Below are positions 36,547-62,864 of a DNA stretch of 64,000 nucleotides, one piece after another. A program made the translations under genes and the position numbers. Within the stretch, counting starts at the first letter, position 1; each line of letters starts with the position of its first letter. The stretch covers positions 1-64,000 of the forward strand of contig DAIDLI010000118.1 in assembly GCA_027449545.1 (NCBI GenBank), given 5' to 3'. The notes under the pieces were generated by a model, which worked only from the letters and a program-made list of their open reading frames with translations, was not told the origin of the DNA and did no database searches. Source of the stretch: Acidobacteriaceae bacterium (lineage in GTDB: Bacteria > Acidobacteriota > Terriglobia > Terriglobales > Acidobacteriaceae).

Positions 36547-37213
36547 TTATTCCACCAGCGTAACGCCAATCATCCTCATCGTGCTTTCCAGCGTTGAATA
36601 CTGCGCTGCATTTTTCGCAAATTCCCCTTCGAGCGACTTCTGAAAGAACTCGCTTTTGGGATTCGGATCAAAACCGATGTATCCGCGCATCCGTGATGGG
36701 GCACCTGTTCGCAGGAGGGTGCGGTAGTAGCAAATGCTTCGTCCGCTGCCGTCCTCGGCGTAAAGCGAGGCACCTTCCAACCGCTCGCCCGGTGTCGGCG
36801 GGCGAAGAATAATCGCGTAGTCATCGCTCCATACGTTTGCCCAAAGCGGGCCATACCAGATCGGCAGGGGATTTCGATTGGGAATCCAATCTTCCAGTTC
36901 TCGGGTGCCTTTGAGATTCTTGAGCACTCGGCTGGCCTTGAAAATATGATTCACCACCGCGATGTTTCCGATGTCGTCCACGGAAAGCTCAACTAATCCC
37001 CACTGTGCGAAACCGCTCAAGACCCCTTGTTTGTAGTCGCTTTCGCGGCGTAAATCCTCGCGATAGCACTGCCTTCGCCAGCAAGGCAGTACGCCAGCAC
37101 TATGATCACGCACTACGTTTGTAGTGCGTGATCATAATGCTGGAAATGGAAGGTGCGTTTTCGTGTCGAATTTCCAACTCGGCTGTTGAAAGTGGCCTTG
37201 CCATCGTTTGCAT
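36547..37213 (-). pseudogene. Frameshifted unknown gene (13-base templated insertion)
   Basis: An ATG at 37213, nine bases after the stop of the upstream gene, opens a frame MQTMARPLSTAELEIRHEN...ITHYKRSA that stops at 37106. The remainder continues in another frame from SAGVLPCWRRQCYRED to the stop at 36547. Removing 13 bases (GTGATCATAGTGC, minus strand) restores one continuous frame HYKRSAGVLPCW of 217 residues, and the total length then becomes an exact number of codons. The same insertion perfects a hairpin. I recognise no family in the protein (motifs NRNPLPIWYGPLWANVWSDDY, GYIGFDPNP). It is the last member of a four-gene minus-strand cluster. Alternatively a shorter protein starts at GTG 37113. 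Confidence 0.65.
37094..37143. repeat. Near-perfect 50-base palindrome inside the frameshifted gene
   Basis: CCAGCA-C-TATGATCACGCACTAC pairs with GTAGTGCGTGATCATA-A-TGCTGG around GTTT: 23-base arms with one mismatch, the inner 16 bases perfect. A second hairpin (ACTGCCTT/AAGGCAGT) lies just to its left. No T-run follows on either strand, so it is not a terminator. Confidence 0.9.
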
Positions 37214-44531: not shown

Positions 44532-46040
44532 ATGCCGCACCTTTCTCTCGGCAACCTGATCTCTCCCCGGCGAGCCTTCACCCTCATCGAGCTTCTCGTT
44601 GTCATCGCCATCATCGCCATCCTTGCGGTCGTCGTCGTCCTCACCTTGAATCCCGCCCAGCTTCTCGCGCAATCAAGGGATGCAAACCGGGTGTCCGACC
44701 TTGCCACCCTCAATTCCGCGATCAATCTGTACGCCACCGATCAGGCAGGTTCGTCCAATTTCTCCCTCGGCTCTCCCACGGTGACATACCTCTCCATTCC
44801 CGATCCGAATGCCACGACGACCGCCGGCACGGACTGTTCCCTCATGGGCAGCAACTTCCTTGCGGGAGGATACTTCCACTGCGCGGCAACCAGCACGTAC
44901 CGCAATGTCTCCTCGACCGGATGGCTCCCTATCGATTTCAATGCCATCAGCGCGGGCTCTCCCTTCGGCTCCCTCCCCGTGGACCCCGTGAATTCCACCT
45001 CCAGCAACTTCTATTACACCTACTGGTCGAACGGCTCCACGTATCGCCTCACGGCCAACCCGGAATCCCAGAAATACCAGGCGGAGCTTGCGCAGAATCC
45101 CCAGATGTTCACTGCGGGCTCGGCTGCGAACCTCGCGGGCACCTGGGTGCCCGTCCCTGGCAACAGCGCCTTCGGGACAGGCAACTTCATGGTGATGAAG
45201 TACGATGCTTCGTGCGCGAGCATGACGACGGGAACGGGTCTCACGAGTCCTTTGGATGGTACGGCGGTGAACGGTTACAACAACGGGGGCACGGGCGTGG
45301 GCCCCGATAACTGCTCTGTCGCGAACGGCTATGTGCCGACCTCCCAGGCGACGGGGTACCCGATCGTCGACGTGTCGGAAATCCAGGCAAAGACATATTG
45401 CGCGGCGATCGGCGCCCACCTCCTCACGAACGACGAATATATGACGATCGACACGAACGCGGTCAACCAGGGATCGAACTGGACAGGAGGATCCGTGGGG
45501 TCCGGCGGCGCATATCTTGGCAACGCGAACAACGCGAGCGCCTATGTCGCCGATCCGAACGACGCGAATGGGTGGGCGGGGGAGACGAACAAGACCGTCA
45601 CGAACACGAATGACGAACGCCGCACCTATACCCTCTCGAACGGATCGGTCGTCTGGGACATGGCGGGCAATCTCTGGCAGGAGGTGCAGCGGAGCCAGAT
45701 GAATCAGGGGGATAATACCAATACCATCACGCCGCCCACCTGCTCGAATGGCACCGCCGGATGGGAATGGTGCCAGTGGAACTCGACCGCCCCCTATGTG
45801 ACGGCATACAATGACTCCTCATTCAGCGCGGCGACGGTCGCGCCCCCGAACAACACCTGGACGAGCGCGCAGGGTATGGGTCAGATTTTGACGTGGGGTT
45901 CCGGTGTAAATCAGAGCACCAATACGTTCATTCGTGATGGCAATTGGAACGCTGGCGCGGGCAGTGGTCCGTTCGCGTTGTACCTGGCTTGGCACACCAG
46001 CGACGAGAGCTACTCTGTGGGGTTCCGTTGTGCACGGTAG
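44532..46040 (+). CDS. Prepilin-type protein with FGE/C-type-lectin domain; probable DGR variable protein
   Basis: 502 residues. Residues 1-40 are a type IV prepilin signal: leader ending RRA, then FTLIELLVVIAIIAILAVVV, with Ala at the cleavage position and Glu5 of the mature chain. After the pilin stalk a formylglycine-generating-enzyme (SUMF1)-like C-type-lectin domain spans about residues 215-502 (VSEIQAKTYCAAIGAHLLTN, VVWDMAGNLWQEV). The end, FIRDGNWNAGAGSGPFALYL then AWHTSDESYSVGFRCAR, has the frame of a DGR variable region: constant R-x-GNWN, PFAL and GFRCAR blocks with variable residues at positions usually templated by AAC/AAT codons. No reverse transcriptase or template repeat is in the window. 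It should be displayed on the cell surface as a pilus-like fibre and bind variable ligands. Confidence 0.85.
   Translation: MPHLSLGNLISPRRAFTLIELLVVIAIIAILAVVVVLTLNPAQLLAQSRDANRVSDLATLNSAINLYATDQAGSSNFSLGSPTVTYLSIPDPNATTTAGTDCSLMGSNFLAGGYFHCAATSTYRNVSSTGWLPIDFNAISAGSPFGSLPVDPVNSTSSNFYYTYWSNGSTYRLTANPESQKYQAELAQNPQMFTAGSAANLAGTWVPVPGNSAFGTGNFMVMKYDASCASMTTGTGLTSPLDGTAVNGYNNGGTGVGPDNCSVANGYVPTSQATGYPIVDVSEIQAKTYCAAIGAHLLTNDEYMTIDTNAVNQGSNWTGGSVGSGGAYLGNANNASAYVADPNDANGWAGETNKTVTNTNDERRTYTLSNGSVVWDMAGNLWQEVQRSQMNQGDNTNTITPPTCSNGTAGWEWCQWNSTAPYVTAYNDSSFSAATVAPPNNTWTSAQGMGQILTWGSGVNQSTNTFIRDGNWNAGAGSGPFALYLAWHTSDESYSVGFRCAR
45900..46037 (+). other. Putative DGR variable region (VR)
   Basis: The region runs from about TGGGGTTCCGGTGTAAAT to the last codon. 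Constant blocks (CGTGATGGCAATTGGAAC, GGTCCGTTCGCGTTG, GGGTTCCGTTGTGCACGG) alternate with codons for A, Y, A-W-H, D-E and Y-S where DGR templates usually carry AAC. The left limit is approximate because the template repeat is not visible. Confidence 0.65.
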
Positions 46041-46107: not shown

Positions 46108-47094
46108 TCACCGCTCGCCGCGAAGTTCAGCGATTGATTCCGTCCAGAAAAACAGGACATCGCGAAAGTCGGCGTGCGCATCTTCTCGCTGGTAGGGGGC
46201 GATGGTGGCTTCAAGCCTCCCAACTTTTCCTGACCCGTTAGGTAACTCTTCGAACGCTTCCGCTACGCACCCGTCGGACGCCCTATAGACTACGGATCCT
46301 TGGTCGAACGATTTGTTCCAGTGAATACGGTACCGACTATCGCAGGCCTCAGATAGGTGCAGCGATTGCCTGCGGTATTTGGGGACCACTTCCGTGGAAC
46401 GAGTCCTCAGGTCTGAAAAAAGTGTCTGCTGGTCGCACTCTCTTGCCAAGAGCCGGGTCTCCGGCAAGGTAAGACGATATTTCAGGAGTCCCGCAACCGC
46501 TCTGCTCGGATGCGCAGTCGCCAATCGGTACGTAGTCGCTTCATAGGAGCTACCAAAGAAGGCCGACAGCCGTTCAACACCGTTAAGGCTGTAGTCGCCC
46601 GCTGCGACTCGCTGGAAGTCCTCGATGGGCATAAGGAGTTCCGCCCCGCCCAAATCGCAAAGCCGCTCAAGCTCGTTGGCTTCCTTAGAATCCGACTCAT
46701 GGATGTTGCGGAACCTTGCCCCCGTGCTGGTGCTTGGGAAGAATGTATGAGAAATCTCGTGGCCGATTGAAAATGCGACTCGCTGCGGCGGGCGATCTGG
46801 ATTGTAGAGGATTTGCCGTCCTTTTGGCGTTTGAATCAGAACTGCATCTCGCTCCTCACCACGCCGATGTTCGATGTCCATCGCCGTCACCCTGATTCCC
46901 AGGAGTGAGGCGATTATGATCATGCGCTGGAGCGGGTTGCTGAACCCTGGATCGTACTTGCGGTAATCAGCATTCACCTTGCGCGCTTGGTGAAGGACCG
47001 CGGAGCGCGGGCCCACTAATCCGCCAGCTGCCGCAGAAAGGGCAATGACGTCGGGGTCCGAATATTTGCGCCCAGCGATCCGTACTGTTCCCAT
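46108..47094 (-). CDS. ImmA/IrrE-family metallopeptidase
   Basis: 328 residues; ATG 47094 directly follows the XRE gene stop (TGAATG). The zinc-protease motif is SIGHEISHTFFPS, with a following acidic residue in ESDSKEANELERLCDLGGAE, as in the ImmA/IrrE (DUF955) family; a C-terminal domain of about 150 residues is extra. In mobile elements such as ICEBs1 the partner cleaves the cognate XRE repressor and releases the element's operon. Here it is coupled to an XRE gene and divergent from the ubiquitin-like operon, so the same arrangement is likely. Confidence 0.85.
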   Translation of the reverse strand: MGTVRIAGRKYSDPDVIALSAAAGGLVGPRSAVLHQARKVNADYRKYDPGFSNPLQRMIIIASLLGIRVTAMDIEHRRGEERDAVLIQTPKGRQILYNPDRPPQRVAFSIGHEISHTFFPSTSTGARFRNIHESDSKEANELERLCDLGGAELLMPIEDFQRVAAGDYSLNGVERLSAFFGSSYEATTYRLATAHPSRAVAGLLKYRLTLPETRLLARECDQQTLFSDLRTRSTEVVPKYRRQSLHLSEACDSRYRIHWNKSFDQGSVVYRASDGCVAEAFEELPNGSGKVGRLEATIAPYQREDAHADFRDVLFFWTESIAELRGER

Positions 47095-47568
47095 TCACTC
47101 TTGCGGGGGCCGCTGGGCGACTACCTTTATGGCATCCCACAGAAACCGCCACGCCTCCTTATCTTTTGGTCGATGCCCCCGAAAATTCAGATGAGAGAGC
47201 ATCTCTGTCTCCTGGTCAGAAAGATTCAGTTCCTGCTGTAGTTCCGCCAAACCAGGAGGTAGCTCCTCGGCCTGCGGAGCTGAACGCTGTCTGGCAGGAC
47301 GGCTCGCCGCATCGTCCAAAAGCTCGTCCAAAGTGACATCGAACGCGACAGTTATCGAAAACATGTATTGTATGTTGGGTTTGCCTGCCTCGCCGTTCTC
47401 CAGGTCCGAGATGTACGCCTTCGGAACTCCTGAATTTTCCGCCAAATTGGCCTGCGACCACCCCTTCCCCTGGCGAAGAAACCGCACACGCGCACCGAGC
47501 TTCTTAAGGTCGATTCTCGCGATATCCACTATTTTCCAATCCGTTGCAAATTTGTGTTGACACTCCAC
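47095..47568 (-). CDS. XRE-family repressor (ImmR-like)
   Basis: 157 residues from GTG 47568 (a second GTG at 47529 would remove 13 residues). The HTH is LGARVRFLRQGKGWSQANLA, then ENSGVPKAYISDLENGEAG; a C-terminal helical part contains LNLSDQETEMLSHLNFRG. Its promoter (TTGCAG, 17 bases, TACCAT) overlaps the palindrome at 47602-47622, so it probably represses itself and the divergent operon. The adjoining metallopeptidase is its likely inactivator. Confidence 0.82.
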   Translation of the reverse strand: MECQHKFATDWKIVDIARIDLKKLGARVRFLRQGKGWSQANLAENSGVPKAYISDLENGEAGKPNIQYMFSITVAFDVTLDELLDDAASRPARQRSAPQAEELPPGLAELQQELNLSDQETEMLSHLNFRGHRPKDKEAWRFLWDAIKVVAQRPPQE

Positions 47569-47636
47569 CGCACCCGCAGGATAATTCCAACAGGTCGTAA
47601 TAAACCGATGGTAGCTCGGTTTAATGAGGCCTGCAA
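47557..47636. promoter_or_regulatory. Divergent promoters and shared operator of XRE/ImmA and ubiquitin-like operons
   Basis: Rightward: TTGACA (47557-47562), 17 bases, GATAAT (47580-47585). Leftward: TTGCAG (complement of 47631-47636), 17 bases, TACCAT (complement of 47608-47613). AAACCGA and TCGGTTT (47602-47608, 47616-47622) are perfect arms with a 7-base spacer that cover the leftward -10 and the start of the rightward transcript. Confidence 0.75.
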
Positions 47637-47920: not shown

Positions 47921-48103
47921 ATGGCTAATCTCGGTCAGCAGTTCCGCCCAGGTGAGCAGGTTCCCGTATCGGGAATCTACGCCTGCACCGGATGTCGCAC
48001 AAGCGCAAGTTTCAGCACGGACGTGAAAGGCCACATCTTTCCGCCGAGCCATTGCCACGGTTCGCAATGGCAGCTGGTACAAGCCACGCCCCATTCGCGG
48101 TGA
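47921..48103 (+). CDS. YjzC-like small zinc-ribbon protein
   Basis: 60 residues from ATG 47921, preceded by a strong AAAGGAGG. The opening GQQFRPGEQVPVSGIYAC matches the YjzC-like family (FKPGExxPxxGxY), continued by CTGC and later HCHG, which could bind one zinc. The terminal part (QWQLV) also fits. Role unknown; its place between the regulator and the conjugation genes suggests it belongs to the system. Confidence 0.7.
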   Translation: MANLGQQFRPGEQVPVSGIYACTGCRTSASFSTDVKGHIFPPSHCHGSQWQLVQATPHSR

Positions 48104-48391: not shown

Positions 48392-48655
48392 ATGACAAAT
48401 CAAACAGATCACAACGAGCACGAGCATTCGATTCACTACATCGTTGACGACGAACCTGAATCGACACTGAAGACAGTTCTCACACCCATCGAGATAATGA
48501 GTGACGCGGGGATTGACCCCAAGACCAATTATCTGGAGCAACTGATCCACGGAGACAAGCCGGTCTCGTACAAAGACAACCCCGAAGAAAAGATCGAGAT
48601 GAAGAACGGAATGCGCTTCATCACGAAGCCAATTGGACCGATGCCGGTCTCCTAG
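48392..48655 (+). CDS. Ubiquitin-like protein (multiubiquitin-family domain)
   Basis: 87 residues from ATG 48392. After an acidic, His-rich N-terminus comes a single beta-grasp-like unit: IHYIVDDEPESTLKTVLTPI, EIMSDAGIDPKTNYLEQL, KIEMKNGMRFITKPIG. The pattern of a short hairpin, the AGID helix and a final strand ending in G matches the multiubiquitin (PF14452-like) family as I know it. The chain ends PIGPMPVS: there is no C-terminal Gly-Gly, but G82 is followed by five residues that could be removed by the JAMM peptidase encoded two genes later. It would be the modifier of the conjugation system. Confidence 0.72.
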   Translation: MTNQTDHNEHEHSIHYIVDDEPESTLKTVLTPIEIMSDAGIDPKTNYLEQLIHGDKPVSYKDNPEEKIEMKNGMRFITKPIGPMPVS

Positions 48656-48668
48656 AGCAGAGGAAATC

Positions 48669-49040
48669 ATGTTTGGTAAAGATGCCTTCATTCAGGGCCT
48701 GAAGGAGCTTGGGTACACGGCCGAGGACCTCGGTGCGAACCGCGTAGCATTTGAATACACGATCAAGGACGGGCGCTTTAAGGATCGAATAATCAAAGTT
48801 GGGATCGAAGTTCCCGCGGATTTTAATGTGACCTGTCCAACCGGACCTCATATTTCTCCGAGCCTCATTCCCTTGAATCCGAGTGGTGCGGGGAATGACC
48901 GCGCCGCGGGTAGTGGATTTGGGCAGGAATGGCAGTATCTGAGCAGGCCATTCAGGGACCAGCAGGAGGGATGGAATCGGACGAAAAGGGACGTCAAAGC
49001 GTACCTTCGCCACGTGCGGCACATCCTCGACACGCTATGA
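48669..49040 (+). CDS. E2-like conjugating protein (prokaryotic E2 family)
   Basis: 123 residues from ATG 48669 after GAGGAAATC. The E2-like core is a N-terminal helix (FIQGLKELGYTAED), strands (VAFEYTIKDGRF, KVGIEVPADFNV), the segment TCPTGPHISPSLIP with C56 as the candidate catalytic cysteine, and the strongly conserved closing EWQYLSRPF...YLRHVRHILDTL. This matches the prokaryotic E2 group that accompanies multiubiquitin genes. The stop overlaps the ATG of the JAMM-E1 gene. It should receive the ubiquitin-like protein from E1 and transfer it to a target. Confidence 0.75.
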   Translation: MFGKDAFIQGLKELGYTAEDLGANRVAFEYTIKDGRFKDRIIKVGIEVPADFNVTCPTGPHISPSLIPLNPSGAGNDRAAGSGFGQEWQYLSRPFRDQQEGWNRTKRDVKAYLRHVRHILDTL

Positions 49041-50539
49041 CCTACAGCGCCGCATTAACCTCAGACGTAGATCGGGCTCTCAGGGCACATCTTCTTCGAC
49101 CCGACGGTCAGGAAGATCTCTGCTATGCGCTCTGGTTCCCCGGACAAGGCGCGAACCGACTCACAGCACTTATCTCCGAGCCGATTCTTCCGGGCGAAGG
49201 CGAGCGTCATATTCACGGTAATGCAAGCACCACAGGGGACTATCTCGGGCGAGCAATCGAATTAGCGAGCGCAAAAGGTGCGGGCATCGCATTCCTCCAC
49301 AGCCATCCTCACTCCGGATGGCAAGGCATGAGCCCAGACGACATTGCAACTGAGAAGCGGCAGGCAATCGCCGCAAAGGCGGCAACGGGGCTGCCCCTCC
49401 TCGGCCTCACCCTCGCAATGGATGGCGCATGGAGCGCACGATTCTGGATCAAGACGGCACCAAAGATCTATGAGAGGTATTGGTGCGAATCCGTGCGCGT
49501 AATCGGCGCTGGCGGGCTGGAAGTTACCTTTGCTGACGAACTTCTTCCGCCACCACAATTTCGTGAAGAGCTAATAAGAACGGTATCCGCATGGGGGACG
49601 ACTGCTCAAGAGAAATTGGCGCGCTTGACCTTCGGCGTGGTGGGTGTCGGTAGTGTAGGATCGGTCGTCGCCGAATGTCTCGCACGTATCGGCATCCAAC
49701 GGATCAAGTTGATTGACTATGACGGCATCGAGCGCCACAACCTCGACCGTCTTCTGCACGCTCATTCGCATGATGCGGCGGCAGGAAGGCGCAAGGTCGA
49801 TGTGATAGGAAAAGCGATCCAGCAAAGTTCCACCGCTGCCAATCCAATCATCGAGTCACATCCATTTGCGGTGACAGAGATCGACGGGTTCAACGAGGCC
49901 CTCGATTGTGACATCCTCTTTAGCTGTGTGGATCGGCCGTGGGCTCGACACGTTCTCAATTACATCGCTTACGCATATCTCATTCCCGTAATCGACGGTG
50001 GAATTTTGATCCGCATGCGCAATGACCGCTTGCGCCATGCAAGCTGGAAGAGTCATGCGATCTACCCTGCGACACGCTGTCTGCAATGTCTTGGCCAATA
50101 CGACCCTGACCTCGTCAATGTTGAGCGTCGGGGCGATCTCGATGATCCGACGTACATTGAGAATCTTCCCGGCGATCACGCATTGCGAAGGAACGAAAAC
50201 GTGTTCCCATTCAGCGCCAATCTCGCATCATCGCTCGTCATGCATGCATTGCACGTGGCCTTAAACCCTGTTGGGATTTCGAATGTCGGTGAACAGATAT
50301 ATCACTTCGTTGATGGGAGCATCGATCGGACTCAATATGCGACCTGCTATGACGGCTGCTATTTCCCGACTGTCATTGCGAGAGGAGACGCTGAGGGTCT
50401 CCCGATCACTGGACTCGATCTGGGTGCGGCAAAAGTCAGACAGAGAATGCAGCGACAAACCCCCACTTTCTCGGCCAAGATTGCCTCTGCGTGGAGCAAG
50501 TTCGCCGGTCTAATCGGGAAGCTAAATGCGCGATTCTGA
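49037..50539 (+). CDS. JAMM peptidase-E1 (ThiF) fusion
   Basis: 500 residues. Residues 1-150 are a JAB/MPN domain with a complete metal site: Glu in ISEPILPGEGE or nearby, HSHP at about 88-91 and S-P-D-D after seven residues (GMSPDD). From about 170 to 460 it is a ThiF/E1 adenylation domain: GVVGVGSVGSVVAECLARIG, LIDYDGIERHNLDRL, and a CLQC pair near 348 for zinc. It adenylates the C-terminus of the ubiquitin-like protein, and its JAMM half could process precursors or cleave conjugates. No separate deconjugase is encoded. Fusion of both functions in one chain is known from computationally described bacterial ubiquitin-like operons. Confidence 0.85.
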   Translation: MTYSAALTSDVDRALRAHLLRPDGQEDLCYALWFPGQGANRLTALISEPILPGEGERHIHGNASTTGDYLGRAIELASAKGAGIAFLHSHPHSGWQGMSPDDIATEKRQAIAAKAATGLPLLGLTLAMDGAWSARFWIKTAPKIYERYWCESVRVIGAGGLEVTFADELLPPPQFREELIRTVSAWGTTAQEKLARLTFGVVGVGSVGSVVAECLARIGIQRIKLIDYDGIERHNLDRLLHAHSHDAAAGRRKVDVIGKAIQQSSTAANPIIESHPFAVTEIDGFNEALDCDILFSCVDRPWARHVLNYIAYAYLIPVIDGGILIRMRNDRLRHASWKSHAIYPATRCLQCLGQYDPDLVNVERRGDLDDPTYIENLPGDHALRRNENVFPFSANLASSLVMHALHVALNPVGISNVGEQIYHFVDGSIDRTQYATCYDGCYFPTVIARGDAEGLPITGLDLGAAKVRQRMQRQTPTFSAKIASAWSKFAGLIGKLNARF

Positions 50540-50941: not shown

Positions 50942-51697
50942 ATGCGAGGTCCTCTCGCCTACATCGGCGGCAAGCGAGCCGTCGCGAAAGAAATCATCGC
51001 GCTCCTGCCGAGCCACGTGACCTACGTGGAACCTTTTGCGGGAGGCGCGCAGATTTTCTTCGCAAAGCCCCCGTCGAAGGTCGAAGTTCTGAACGATCTC
51101 GACGGCGAACTCGTGAACTTCTACCGCGTGATTCAGCGCCACTACGAGGAACTCGTCCGGTACATGCGGTTTACTATCGTGAGCCGCAGGCATTACGACC
51201 TCCTGAAGGCCACGCAACCGGAGACGCTCACGGACATCCAGCGCGCCGCGCGCTTCCTGTATCTCCAGAAAACGAGCTACGCCGGGCGCGTGACGAAGCA
51301 GAACTTCCGCACCGGCATCGTGAACCCTCCGGGGCTCAACCCGGAGCGCATCCCGGAACTCATCGAAGAAACGAACCACCGGTTGGCGCGCGTGCTCATC
51401 GAGTGTCTCCCGTACGAAAAAATCCTCGCGAAGTATGACAGCGCATCTACCTGTTTCTACATCGATCCGCCGTACTACGAGATCAAGCATTACAAGTTCA
51501 ACCTCGATCCCGATGACTTTCGGGTGATGGCGGAGCGTCTTGGCGCGGTGAAGGGCTCGTTCGTGCTATCGCTGAACGACGTTCCAGAAGTGCGTACGAT
51601 CTTTGGCGCGTTCCGGATTCGGGGGATCGAGATGCCGTACACGGCGCAAAAGATCGCAGGCAAGCGGTATAAGGAAGTTCTCATCACGAACTTCTGA
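50942..51697 (+). CDS. D12-class DNA adenine methyltransferase (Dam-like)
   Basis: 251 residues. Motif I is PLAYIGGKRAVAKEIIALLP with VEPFAGGAQIF, and motif IV is FYIDPPYYEIKHY (DPPY). This is the fold of Dam/M.DpnIIA N6-adenine methylases. There is no cognate restriction gene next to it, so an orphan methylase protecting or regulating the element is likely; it precedes the transfer genes. Confidence 0.9.
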   Translation: MRGPLAYIGGKRAVAKEIIALLPSHVTYVEPFAGGAQIFFAKPPSKVEVLNDLDGELVNFYRVIQRHYEELVRYMRFTIVSRRHYDLLKATQPETLTDIQRAARFLYLQKTSYAGRVTKQNFRTGIVNPPGLNPERIPELIEETNHRLARVLIECLPYEKILAKYDSASTCFYIDPPYYEIKHYKFNLDPDDFRVMAERLGAVKGSFVLSLNDVPEVRTIFGAFRIRGIEMPYTAQKIAGKRYKEVLITNF

Positions 51698-58755: not shown

Positions 58756-61452
58756 ATGACCCCGGCGACCCCCTCAAATTCCGAGTGGCTGACGCGCAAA
58801 CTTCTGATTGACGGCAAGCTCAAGGCTGCAGGCTGGCGCGTCGTTCCTTTTGTGCCCGAAAAATCGTTGGATTCCTATGCTAAATGTGCGATTGAGGAAT
58901 TTCCGACGGCCAGCGGCCCCGCCGACTACGCGCTGTGTTTGGGCGGTCAGATAGTCGGGATTGTCGAAGCGAAGAAACTGACCCTCGGCCCCCAGAACGT
59001 ACTCTCCCAGGCGGAACGGTACTCGAAGGGGTTCCCGCAACCGGCGTTGCAGGCAGGCGACTTCGGCGTACCGCTACTCTACTCGACGAATGGCGAAGTC
59101 ATTTGGTATCACGACGTGCGCGATCCTTTCAATCGTTCGCGCCAGATTGCTGATTTCCATACCCCCGAGGCCGTCGCCGAAATCATCGGCTTCGACTTCA
59201 ATGCCGCGCTCGCGCGATTGAAGGCGCTTCCGAACAAACAGGCGAAGCTGCGTCCTTATCAAATCGAGGCTAACAACGCGATAGAAGATGCCATCGCCGC
59301 GCGGAAGCGCACCATGCTCGTCGACATGGCGACCGGTACCGGCAAGACCTTCACCATGGTGAATGAAGTCTATCGCCTCATGAAATCCGGCGCGGCCCGT
59401 CGCGTGCTTTTCCTTGTGGACCGCCGGGCGCTCGCGGCACAGGCGGTCAGGGCATTTGGCTCCTTCGATGCGGATCAGGGTCTCAAGTTCGACAAGGTGT
59501 ACGAGGTCTACAGCCAGCGCTTCCAAAAGGAAGACTTCGGGGAGGAAGAAAAATTCGATCCCAAGGTGCTCCCGAAGTCGTATCTCGAAGCTCCCAAGCT
59601 GGGCAGCGCTTTCGTGTACGTTTCGACCATTCAGCGCATGACCATCAACCTCTTCGGGCGCGAAGCCGCAATGCGCGATGAAGACGCAATCGATGAGGAT
59701 GCGGAGAAACTCAATATCCCCATCCATGCATTTGACCTCATCGTCGCCGACGAGTGCCACCGTGGATACACTTCATCCGAGGCTGCCATCTGGCGCAAGA
59801 CACTCGACCATTTCGACGCCATCAAGATTGGCCTCACGGCAACCCCCGCCGCGCACACCACGGCCTTTTTCCGCGATACCGTGTATCGCTATGAATACGA
59901 GCGCGCGCTGCGCGAAGGCTACCTCGTCGATTACGACGTGGTGAAGGTTCGCTCTAACGTTCGCATGAATGGCGTTTTCCTCAACGAAGGCGAAGAGGTT
60001 AGCCTCGTCAATCCGGAGACCGGATCAACCAAGATGGACAACCTTGAGGACGAGCGCACCTTCGATGCCGCCACCATCGAAAGGGAAATCACTGCGCCGG
60101 ATTCGAATCGGAAAATCCTCGAAGAGATCAAAGCGTATGCCACGGAACACGAGCAACAGTGCGGACGCTTCCCAAAGACGCTGATCTTCGCGGCAAATGA
60201 TCTCCCGCATACGTCTCATGCGGATCAACTTGTCGATCTAGCCCGCGATATCTTCGGCAGGGGAGACTCCTTCGTCCAGAAGATCACCGGCAGTCCCACG
60301 GTAGACCGCCCGCTCCAGCGCATCCGCGAATTCCGCAACCGTCCCAATCCGGGCATCGTGGTTTCCGTAGATATGCTGACCACCGGCGTGGACATTCCTG
60401 ACCTCGAATTCATCGTCTTCCTGCGCCCCGTGAAGTCCCGCATCCTCTTCGAGCAGATGCTCGGGCGCGGCACGCGCAAGGGCGAGAAGTATCCCGACAA
60501 ATCGCACTTCGTCGTTTTCGATTGCTTCGATGGCACGCTCCTCGAATACTTCCGCCAATCGACGGCCATGACCGCCGACCCGCCCACGGGCGTCACGCGA
60601 TCCATAGCGGAAATCGTCGAAGACATCTGGGCCAATCGCGACCGGGAATACAACGTCCGTTGTCTCACCAAGCGCTTCCAGCGCATTGACAAGGAGATGC
60701 ACGGCGACGCCCGCGCCGACTTTGCCGCCTTCGTGCCCGAAGGCGATCTCGCCGCGTTCGCCAGGAATCTCACAGCGGCCCTCCAGCAGAACTTCACACC
60801 CGCGATGGGTCTGCTGCGGAATCCTGACTTCCAGCGTCTGCTCCAGGACTACAAACGCAAACCCCGCGTCTTCTTCGTCGCACACACGGCACAGGATGAG
60901 GTCTCATCCGAATGGCTTGTGCGTGGGCTCGACGGCAAGGAATATAAGCCCGACGACTACCTCGCCGCCTTTGCCGCCTACGTTGCCGCCCATCAATCGG
61001 ACATCGACGCCATCGCAATTCTGCTCAAGCATCCGCAGAAATGGAACCCCGAGGCGCTCAAGTCCTTGCGCGATACACTGGCCGCCACCCCGCAGCGGTT
61101 CACCGTGCCCAATCTGCAAAAGGCATTCGAACTGCGCCGCCACAAGGCGCTTGCCGACATCATCTCCATGGTGAAGAACTCCGCCGACGCGCAAAACCCG
61201 CTTCTCAACGCTGCGGAACGCGTGGACCGGGCCATGAGTACAATCAAAGACGGCAACACCTTCACTGCCGATCAACTCCTCTGGCTTGACCGCATCCGGA
61301 CACACCTCCAGGAGAATCTCTCCATCGATCAGGACGACTTTGAAAGCCAGCCCGTCCTCAGCGACTTCGGCGGATGGGGCAAAGCGGTGCGTGTCTTCCA
61401 AGGTCGTCTCCCGCAGCTGATTCAGGAACTTAATAAGGCCATCGCAGCATGA
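58756..61452 (+). CDS. hsdR: Type I restriction enzyme R subunit
   Basis: 898 residues. The N-terminal PD-(D/E)xK nuclease is seen in GPADYALCLGGQIVGIVEAKK. The SF2 translocase follows: Walker A MATGTGKTFTMVNE, DECH box IVADECHRGYTS, motif III LTATPAAHT, and motif VI-type EQMLGRGTRKGEKY. The C-terminal helical domain contacts HsdM. It cuts DNA after ATP-driven translocation from unmethylated sites. The stop overlaps the hsdM ATG. Confidence 0.95.
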   Translation: MTPATPSNSEWLTRKLLIDGKLKAAGWRVVPFVPEKSLDSYAKCAIEEFPTASGPADYALCLGGQIVGIVEAKKLTLGPQNVLSQAERYSKGFPQPALQAGDFGVPLLYSTNGEVIWYHDVRDPFNRSRQIADFHTPEAVAEIIGFDFNAALARLKALPNKQAKLRPYQIEANNAIEDAIAARKRTMLVDMATGTGKTFTMVNEVYRLMKSGAARRVLFLVDRRALAAQAVRAFGSFDADQGLKFDKVYEVYSQRFQKEDFGEEEKFDPKVLPKSYLEAPKLGSAFVYVSTIQRMTINLFGREAAMRDEDAIDEDAEKLNIPIHAFDLIVADECHRGYTSSEAAIWRKTLDHFDAIKIGLTATPAAHTTAFFRDTVYRYEYERALREGYLVDYDVVKVRSNVRMNGVFLNEGEEVSLVNPETGSTKMDNLEDERTFDAATIEREITAPDSNRKILEEIKAYATEHEQQCGRFPKTLIFAANDLPHTSHADQLVDLARDIFGRGDSFVQKITGSPTVDRPLQRIREFRNRPNPGIVVSVDMLTTGVDIPDLEFIVFLRPVKSRILFEQMLGRGTRKGEKYPDKSHFVVFDCFDGTLLEYFRQSTAMTADPPTGVTRSIAEIVEDIWANRDREYNVRCLTKRFQRIDKEMHGDARADFAAFVPEGDLAAFARNLTAALQQNFTPAMGLLRNPDFQRLLQDYKRKPRVFFVAHTAQDEVSSEWLVRGLDGKEYKPDDYLAAFAAYVAAHQSDIDAIAILLKHPQKWNPEALKSLRDTLAATPQRFTVPNLQKAFELRRHKALADIISMVKNSADAQNPLLNAAERVDRAMSTIKDGNTFTADQLLWLDRIRTHLQENLSIDQDDFESQPVLSDFGGWGKAVRVFQGRLPQLIQELNKAIAA

Positions 61453-62864
61453 GTGACATCGTTCAAAAACTCTGGGGCTTCTGCCACACTCTGCGTCATG
61501 ACGGCGTGGATTACGGCGACTACATCGAGCAGTTGACCTATCTGCTCTTCTTGAAGATGGCCGATGAACGCGCCGTCGAGATTCCCAAGGGCTGCGACTG
61601 GACCAGTCTGAAGACGCTCTCCGGAACCGACCTCACCGACCATTACAACGACGTACTGCGCAAGCTGCGTGCTGCCGAGGGGCTTCTCGGCGACATCTTC
61701 ACCCAGGCCACCTCGCGTTTCAACAATCCCGTCAATCTCCGCCGCCTCATCGACATGATTGATGAAGAGGAGTGGTCCTCGCTCGACGTGGATGTGAAGG
61801 GCGCGGCCTTCGAGGGCCTGCTCGAAAAAGCTGCGAGCGAAGGCAAAAAGGGCGCGGGCCAATACTTCACGCCTCGCGTGCTCATCCAGACCATCTGCCG
61901 CGTCATGAAGCCCGACCCGCGCGGGCGCAAGGACTTCACGATTGCCGACCCGGCGTGCGGCACCGGCGGATTCCTCGTGAGCGCCTACGAATGGCTCGTC
62001 GCCGAGAGCAAGGGCGTCTTTGACCGTACCGACGCCAAGCGCATCCGCACGCAGACCTATTACGGACAGGACCTTGTGCCGCGTCCCCGCCGTCTCGCGC
62101 TTATGAATCTTTACCTGCACGGTGTGCAGCCGCACATTTATCTCGGCGATACGCTCTATGAGCCGGATCGCGGCGAGCGCTACGATGTCGTGCTCACCAA
62201 TCCACCCTTTGGTACAAAGGGGGCCAATCAAGCTCCCGAGCGCGAAGACTTCACGATTGAGACCAGCAACAAGCAACTCAACTTTGTCCAGCACGTCGTG
62301 AACACACTCAAGCCCGGCGGTCGCGCTGCCATGGTACTTCCCGACAACTGCCTTTTTGAGGACAAGGCGGGCGAAGTCTTCGAAATTCTCATGCAGGACT
62401 GCAACCTGCACACCGTCCTGCGCCTGCCGCGCGGCACCTTCACGCCTTACAGCCAGGGCGTCAAGGCAAACGTCATCTTCTTTCAGAAAGGTATGCCGAC
62501 GGAGAAGGTCTGGATCTTCGACGCCCGCTCCAACGTGCCCGGCATCACCAAGAAAGACCGCCCCCTCACCCGCGATCACTTCACCGAATTCGAAAAGGCC
62601 TACGGCAAGGACCCGAATGGTCAGAGCAAGCGCACCGATGGCGGCGAGACCGGACGCTTCCGCAGCTTCCCGCTCGCAGCCATCAAGGAGCGCGGCTACA
62701 AACTCGACATCACCTGGCTGAAGGATGAATCCCTCGAAGATTCGGACGACCTGCCGGAGCCGCAGGAGCTTGCCGCCGAGGCGATTACTGAACTCGAAGC
62801 CATCGTGGACAGCCTGCGAGAGATTGTCGTCCTCGTGGAAAAAGAGGAAGGCGTGGAAGTATGA
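61449..62864 (+). CDS. hsdM: Type I restriction enzyme M subunit
   Basis: 471 residues. N-terminal HsdM helical domain, then the N6-adenine methylase with SAM motif IADPACGTGGFLVSAYEW and catalytic VVLTNPPFGTKG (NPPF). With HsdS it methylates the recognition site, and with HsdR it forms the restriction complex. ATGA overlap on both sides couples the three genes. Confidence 0.96.
   Translation: MSDIVQKLWGFCHTLRHDGVDYGDYIEQLTYLLFLKMADERAVEIPKGCDWTSLKTLSGTDLTDHYNDVLRKLRAAEGLLGDIFTQATSRFNNPVNLRRLIDMIDEEEWSSLDVDVKGAAFEGLLEKAASEGKKGAGQYFTPRVLIQTICRVMKPDPRGRKDFTIADPACGTGGFLVSAYEWLVAESKGVFDRTDAKRIRTQTYYGQDLVPRPRRLALMNLYLHGVQPHIYLGDTLYEPDRGERYDVVLTNPPFGTKGANQAPEREDFTIETSNKQLNFVQHVVNTLKPGGRAAMVLPDNCLFEDKAGEVFEILMQDCNLHTVLRLPRGTFTPYSQGVKANVIFFQKGMPTEKVWIFDARSNVPGITKKDRPLTRDHFTEFEKAYGKDPNGQSKRTDGGETGRFRSFPLAAIKERGYKLDITWLKDESLEDSDDLPEPQELAAEAITELEAIVDSLREIVVLVEKEEGVEV

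Follow-up and report, generated by a model that had tools for sequence, protein, structure and literature searches.

A ubiquitin-like conjugation operon of an Acidobacteriaceae bacterium, probably inducible by DNA damage and sister to Bub

Most known ubiquitin-like proteins (Ubls) end in glycine, and most E2 proteins use a cysteine. Type II CBASS employs E1, E2 and JAMM chemistry through Cap2 and Cap3, with an E1-E2 fusion that acts on a CD-NTase. In Bub, oxyester intermediates have reportedly been found by Ye et al. The Citrobacter Bub proteins BubA, BubB and BubCD are represented by structures deposited as PDB 9ea4, 9ea5, 9ea8, 9eae and 9eav. The available part of an EMBO J 2026 study (PMC13373217) states that CapW, or CapH together with CapP, adjoins 219 of 544 Bub operons, and that ssDNA activates CapP, which then cleaves CapH. 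In the accessible sections of Iyer 2006 (PMC1779556), operon type 6e combines a JAB domain fused to the N-terminus of an E1 with one to three Ubl domains and an E2-fold protein that lacks a conserved cysteine. The same sections regard such E2-fold proteins as inactive and RWD-like, owing to the missing cysteine, and mention Ubl families, beyond those named, that have no glycine or other highly conserved residue at the C-terminus. Bil (BilABCD), as described in the available portion of a 2024 review (PMC11354881), consists of four separate proteins, with an E2 whose catalytic residue is Cys138 and a Ubl that is matured to a C-terminal glycine.

The DNA analyzed here is a 64,000-nucleotide stretch of an Acidobacteriaceae contig, hereafter the window. 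A preliminary description had placed at 48392-50539 an operon for a Ubl, an E2-like protein and a single chain carrying both JAMM and E1, which together would make a minimal conjugation set. The three genes follow one another on the + strand, and the start ATG of the last overlaps the stop codon of the second:

48392-48655, + strand: Ubl (BubA-like), 87 aa, one beta-grasp domain
48669-49040, + strand: E2-fold protein (BubB-like), 123 aa; S92 codon at 48942-48944, C56 codon at 48834-48836
49037-50539, + strand: JAMM-E1 fusion (BubCD-like), 500 aa; JAMM at about 1-178, ThiF/E1 at about 180-470

Folds, motifs and recurrence across loci confirm this operon, and the folds together with homology to BubCD support its reading as a minimal conjugation set. 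We consider it probable that this ubiquitin-like conjugation operon is induced by DNA damage, forms a sister to Bub and works by the steps proposed in the following sections.

Relatives, folds and the closest described systems

In the window's own genus, 3 of 40 genomes (its own counted) have a JAMM-E1 match at E<=1e-20, and the other two proteins are 32-34% identical. Of 396 genomes of the phylum, 31 (again with its own counted) reach E<=1e-10; in many of these the match is confined to the ThiF part. Apart from the window's own genome, seven encode proteins with 43-49% identity across most of the length. A single-protein scan of species-genome contigs found no relative. A profile scan of species genomes (alignment A2) returned 193, and the 80 best were retained; the titles of these 80 span many phyla, Patescibacteria among them, and many of the relatives are metagenome bins that may carry a wrong phylum label. 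Loci of Bradyrhizobium and Zobellia are among the relatives. Viral contigs (one scan) and phage records yielded no relative, which counts against the main reading. With the Ubl as query, the window's own genome returned this locus and no other; with Pfam Multi_ubiq as query, that genome gave no match, and neither did the control genomes.

The three genes keep company. A JAMM-E1 ORF was detected at E<=1e-20 in 102 of the 105 loci scanned (absent from L049, L050 and L116); the 102 include three repeats of contigs already in the set and one additional near-copy. Among ORFs upstream of JAMM-E1 on the same strand, which is where the search was made, a Ubl was detected in 100 of 102 loci and an E2-fold protein in 99. 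Both were present in 98 loci, arranged as Ubl, E2, JAMM-E1 in 85 and with Ubl and E2 fused in 13. Given this recurrence, the arrangement exceeds chance.

A tree of 100 JAMM-E1 rows separates 14 rows of a Citrobacter-like (Bub) group, here called far, from 86 rows of the window's group, here called near, with an SH-aLRT of 100 and branch lengths of 2.41 and 0.68 on either side of the midpoint; the method was a quick one, and several long far branches are possibly misplaced. The far rows come from the phylum search plus Citrobacter only, and the scan patterns were derived from near-type JAMM-E1s, so that the near set was selected on JAMM-E1 and not on the Ubl end or S92. Six plasmid rows were assigned to the far group by identity below 30% rather than by the tree. 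We read the near branch as a sister variant of Bub.

Three further loci deserve mention in their own right. A plasmid of the archaeon Haloplanus (L155, 1562-4087) carries a far-type set of Ubl, E2-like protein and JAMM-E1; the Celeribacter indicus plasmid pP73C (L157, 507-3703) has an IS256 transposase gene between E2 and JAMM-E1; and a Bub-type operon of Rhizobium has, after DUF6527, a gene with the annotation Clp protease proteolytic subunit (L156, 4277-4885), which may connect the system to degradation.

Structure prediction, which the preliminary description had proposed as a check, recovered both the beta-grasp and the E2 fold. The AlphaFold model of the Ubl (pLDDT 86.3) has as its best Foldseek match 8u38 (E 4.6e-5), a molecule labelled Ubl-BilA, and bacterial multi-ubiquitin proteins are among its best matches. 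BubA is matched at a Foldseek E of 1.4e-3 and, with a second aligner, at Z 9.5 and rmsd 3.0; most rows ranked above BubA have an rmsd >6 because those matches span two domains. The Ubl sequence alone found no solved structure with confidence. The label multiubiquitin-like, applied earlier to this protein, holds for its family and fails for its architecture of a single beta-grasp domain. Multi_ubiq is matched by 12 of 38 relatives at E<=0.01.

For the E2-fold model (pLDDT 88.9), the best VIA match is Citrobacter BubB (Z 11.0 over 112 residues, rmsd 3.4), and eukaryotic E2s rank behind it at Z 9.4 and below. Foldseek alone placed BubB 17th (E 0.30), with no E2 match below E 0.08 and nothing below 0.001. 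An HMM restricted to the E2s of the window and the near group had BubB as its sole match below 1e-3 (two chains, best E 3.7e-5). Because Foldseek alone is not significant, it takes the second aligner and this profile match together to assign the protein to E2. In the profile searches that had been suggested, ThiF is found in JAMM-E1 (Pfam E 6.5e-29), and 37 of 58 relatives match Prok-E2_E at E<=0.01, but the window's own E2 reaches 17.6 bits against a Pfam cut-off of 25 and its Ubl matches no Pfam family. JAMM-E1 itself aligns with Citrobacter BubCD over residues 7-328 by phmmer (E 1.9e-26) and over positions 6-363 by a profile built without Citrobacter (E 8.9e-35). A match obtained with alignment A1 was set aside because A1 includes a Citrobacter relative.

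Bub is the closest described system. The window operon shares with it the JAMM-E1 fusion with an intact JAMM motif, the Ubl and E2 folds, a serine at the S92 position and, as in part of the Bub operons, regulators of CapH/CapP type. It differs in that the near group forms a separate branch of the tree and in that near Ubls end in Val-Ser/Ala, whereas those of the Bub branch mostly have glycine. DUF6527, which we take to be BubE, was absent from all 87 near loci, including the 81 with at least 1 kb of downstream DNA, and present in 9 of 11 far loci; it may not define Bub, because none is annotated in the far-type archaeal set of Haloplanus either.

The earlier analogy with Bil gives way to Bub. 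Bil shares the four functions (Ubl, E1, E2 and JAMM) within one operon and the 8u38 fold match with its Ubl-BilA label, but an E2 without a conserved cysteine and the fusion of E1 with JAMM rule out membership. The composition of type 6e, including an E2-fold protein without a conserved cysteine, is found in the window operon; the Val-Ser/Ala end and the invariant E2 serine of the near group differ from the unconserved Ubl C-termini and the inactive E2 in the accessible sections of Iyer 2006 (PMC1779556). Type II CBASS differs, as the window operon has no cyclase gene and PADLOC E1-E2 models cover only parts of the ThiF domain.

Regulators and genomic setting

Upstream of the operon and divergent from it lie adjacent genes for a CapH-like repressor and a CapP-like peptidase, the layout of a regulator pair. 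They and the other features of the surroundings are as follows:

46108-47094, - strand: CapP-like M78/ImmA-IrrE peptidase (PADLOC capP E 2.1e-19, PF06114, HEISH motif)
47095-47568, - strand: CapH-like HTH repressor (PADLOC capH E 2.9e-10, PF01381 HTH_3), divergent from the operon
47557-47585, + strand: promoter-like TTGACA-17-GATAAT at the capH start
47591-47633, unstranded: imperfect inverted repeat with 18-nt arms, 78% complementary, beside the promoter-like site; candidate CapH operator
50942-51697: D12 methylase (Pfam)
58756-62864: hsdR/hsdM-like type I restriction-modification genes

Promoter-like sites of this kind number three in the stretch and 2.6 by chance, which is not above expectation. 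Among the 72 near loci with both flanks, a CapP-like gene lies within 2.5 kb upstream in 52 and downstream in 1, and it is upstream in 57 of the 80 near loci that have 2.5 kb of upstream DNA. Within 5 kb upstream of the 87 near loci, a CapP-like gene was found in 60, a CapH-like gene in 48 and both in 43; 27 have no CapP-like gene in that range, which tells against the main reading, although 7 of the 87 have less than 2.5 kb of upstream DNA. The upstream CapP-like peptidase points to DNA-damage control. By analogy with the known CapH/CapP pair, the CapH-like repressor would keep the operon silent until ssDNA activates the CapP-like peptidase to cleave it.

Three small ORFs (60, 83 and 50 aa) lie between capH and the Ubl gene. 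The 60-aa ORF (47921-48103, + strand) is YjzC-like (PF14168 E 8.9e-5, below the cut-off) and has a Shine-Dalgarno-like sequence ahead of it; beside relatives it has no match, and the 83-aa ORF has a single one there, at 44% in L041.

The preliminary description had located the operon in a mobile region near restriction genes, and this is borne out by a serine recombinase, a HerA/TraG-like ATPase, a replication-relaxation protein and a tyrosine integrase as well as by the D12 methylase and the hsdR/hsdM-like genes. The neighborhoods of relatives were compared by counting PADLOC families at E<=1e-10, of which there were 274 for 140 flanking ORFs at 14 near loci and 9 for 127 control ORFs. The direction alone counts in this comparison. 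Regulators that belong to the operon are part of the case set (6 members are matched by capP models and up to 3 by RmrA models, to which the window's regulators respond as well), PADLOC contains many near-duplicate models, and the controls are other genomes of the window's phylum whereas the case set draws on several phyla. CBASS cyclases and restriction-modification are among the families in the matches listed (25 of the 274). Plasmid copies of the operon are flanked by AbiE, restriction, DarT and Abi genes.

Given the CapH/CapP-like regulators and such neighbors, an antiphage role is plausible, and the context suggests that the likely purpose would be defense against phages or mobile DNA. 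Alternatively, the conjugation may be real and serve a general stress response or mobile-element addiction instead of phage defense. We hold this to be quite possible, if somewhat short of even: control of the CapH/CapP type responds to DNA damage, the neighbors of the operon include a serine recombinase, a replication-relaxation protein and an integrase, and protection against phage has not been demonstrated for Bub operons according to the available part of the EMBO J 2026 study (PMC13373217). The defense-gene neighborhood of the near loci and the AbiE, restriction, DarT and Abi genes that adjoin the plasmid copies argue against it. The three-protein set would be a compact means to ask how Ubl tagging could defend cells.

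Two further features of the region were recorded. A type IV pilin-like protein with an N-methylation motif (44532-46040, + strand) adjoins the serine recombinase; it has a weak FGE-sulfatase-like part, below the cut-off, and self-BLAST of the 3' end of its gene for a diversity-generating repeat gave no convincing copy within the window. At 37094-37143, self-BLAST revealed a 50-bp imperfect palindrome that is 88% identical to its own reverse complement.

The Ubl end, the E2 serine and the JAMM-E1 chain

The window Ubl terminates in GPMPVS (Val-Ser codons at 48647-48652) and has no C-terminal glycine. In the near group, 52 of 87 loci have a Ubl that ends exactly in Val-Ser and 16 one that ends exactly in Val-Ala (68 of 87 together). 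The 11 near Ubl-E2 fusions all have V[SA] at the junction, where the next residue is Asp (9), Glu (1) or Tyr (1). Four of the remaining Ubls have short tails after Val-Ser, one ends in VG and one in TS; the 87 also include one faulty gene model (L103) and one locus whose Ubl was not found and is probably off the contig (L126). VA is also the end of three additional near Ubls, from plasmids. Of the 82 near Ubls measured (86 entered, 4 missed), 75 have the Ser/Ala 11 residues from a conserved Phe, by a pattern that is rough for fusions. In far Ubls, a glycine lies 1-2 residues closer to that Phe, and in most cases a tail or the E2 comes after it. By eye, this glycine is present in 10 of 11 far loci (the exception is L043) and 6 of 6 plasmids, or 16 of 17, with L039, whose Ubl was not found, left uncounted.

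The natural reading of these ends is that the mature near Ubl would end in Ser/Ala and that the JAMM peptidase would cleave just after it. As the junctions suggest, the JAMM half would cut after Val-Ser/Ala to free the tailed or E2-fused Ubl precursors of some relatives, and it may also strip Ubl from targets. This reading predicts the cleavage site to single-residue precision. A literature search found no report of a Ser/Ala-ended Ubl; the principal Bub papers fell outside its coverage.

In the E2-fold protein, the S92 column is serine in 86 of 86 near rows, in 9 of 9 far rows and in BubB, in which the serine of QRWSRH aligns under S92 in the profile match; nine of nine additional plasmid E2s (three near, six far) have it by eye. 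The window motif is YLSR, compared with RWSR or YWSR in Bub-type E2s. In the proposed relay, the E1 half would adenylate the carboxylate of the C-terminal Val-Ser/Ala, and S92 would carry the Ubl as an oxyester before a target receives it. Whether the whole branch, a large one that occurs in genomes with the labels of many phyla, has given up both hallmarks of ubiquitin chemistry and activates and attaches its modifier by a C-terminal Ser/Ala after Val, through an oxyester on the E2 serine and with an E1-fused JAMM that cuts after Val-Ser/Ala, seems to us evenly balanced between yes and no. If so, the Ser/Ala ends and the invariant E2 serine would show how far Ubl chemistry can drift.

The E2-like protein might instead be a catalytically dead RWD-type scaffold that binds the Ubl while the E1 transfers it directly to targets. 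The lack of a conserved cysteine fits such a protein, and the family is called inactive in the available parts of both Iyer 2006 (PMC1779556) and the 2024 review (PMC11354881). A scaffold would not need a serine that is present in all 96 compared rows beside a conserved Trp/Tyr motif, and BubB has the same serine, so we regard this reading as unlikely. A branch with Ser/Ala ends and an invariant E2 serine would make the inactive label testable.

Classical thioester chemistry through C56, the candidate in the preliminary description, is highly improbable: the window protein does have this cysteine, but the column is Cys in only 8 of 86 near relatives, otherwise mostly Pro, Val or Ala, and Met in BubB. 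The E2 fold of that description stands and C56 is rejected as the nucleophile, with S92 invariant in its stead.

Loss of the JAMM/E1 residues in close homologs had been named as a result that would speak against the operon; they are retained. E26, H88, H90, S99 and D102 of the JAMM motif are conserved in all 87 near rows and all 14 far rows, in an alignment that holds one near-identical pair (L078/L079) and omits L054, the C-terminus of which is apparently frameshifted. In the E1 half, G203, G208, N235, R238, K253 and D299 are invariant in both groups, and D292 (86 of 87 near rows) and R304 (84 of 87, with Lys in the other 3) are present in all 14 far rows. A search for an E1 nucleophile in the crossover region found no invariant Cys, Ser or Thr: position 393 has Ser in 77 of the 87 near rows but Asn or Thr in 13 of the 14 far ones. 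This counts against the proposed relay, in which the transfer from E1 to E2, with or without an ester on the E1 itself, is hypothetical.

Four cysteines of the E1 half, C348, C351, C437 and C441, are kept in 87, 86, 83 and 86 of the 87 near rows, respectively, and probably bind zinc, to judge from their pattern. They are not a mark of the branch, because three of the four are common in the far group too (C348, C351 and C441, in 10, 11 and 11 of 14 rows), and Citrobacter has Thr/Asp/Ala/Ala at the four positions. MoeB and ThiF have a zinc site, and a ThiF-type E1 with possible zinc cysteines could fit a sulfur-carrier pathway of the ThiS/MoaD kind, a reading that has next to no chance given a Ubl without a glycine tail, the E2-fold protein that accompanies JAMM-E1 in 99 of 102 loci, and no rhodanese or thiamine/molybdopterin gene among the scanned window neighbors.
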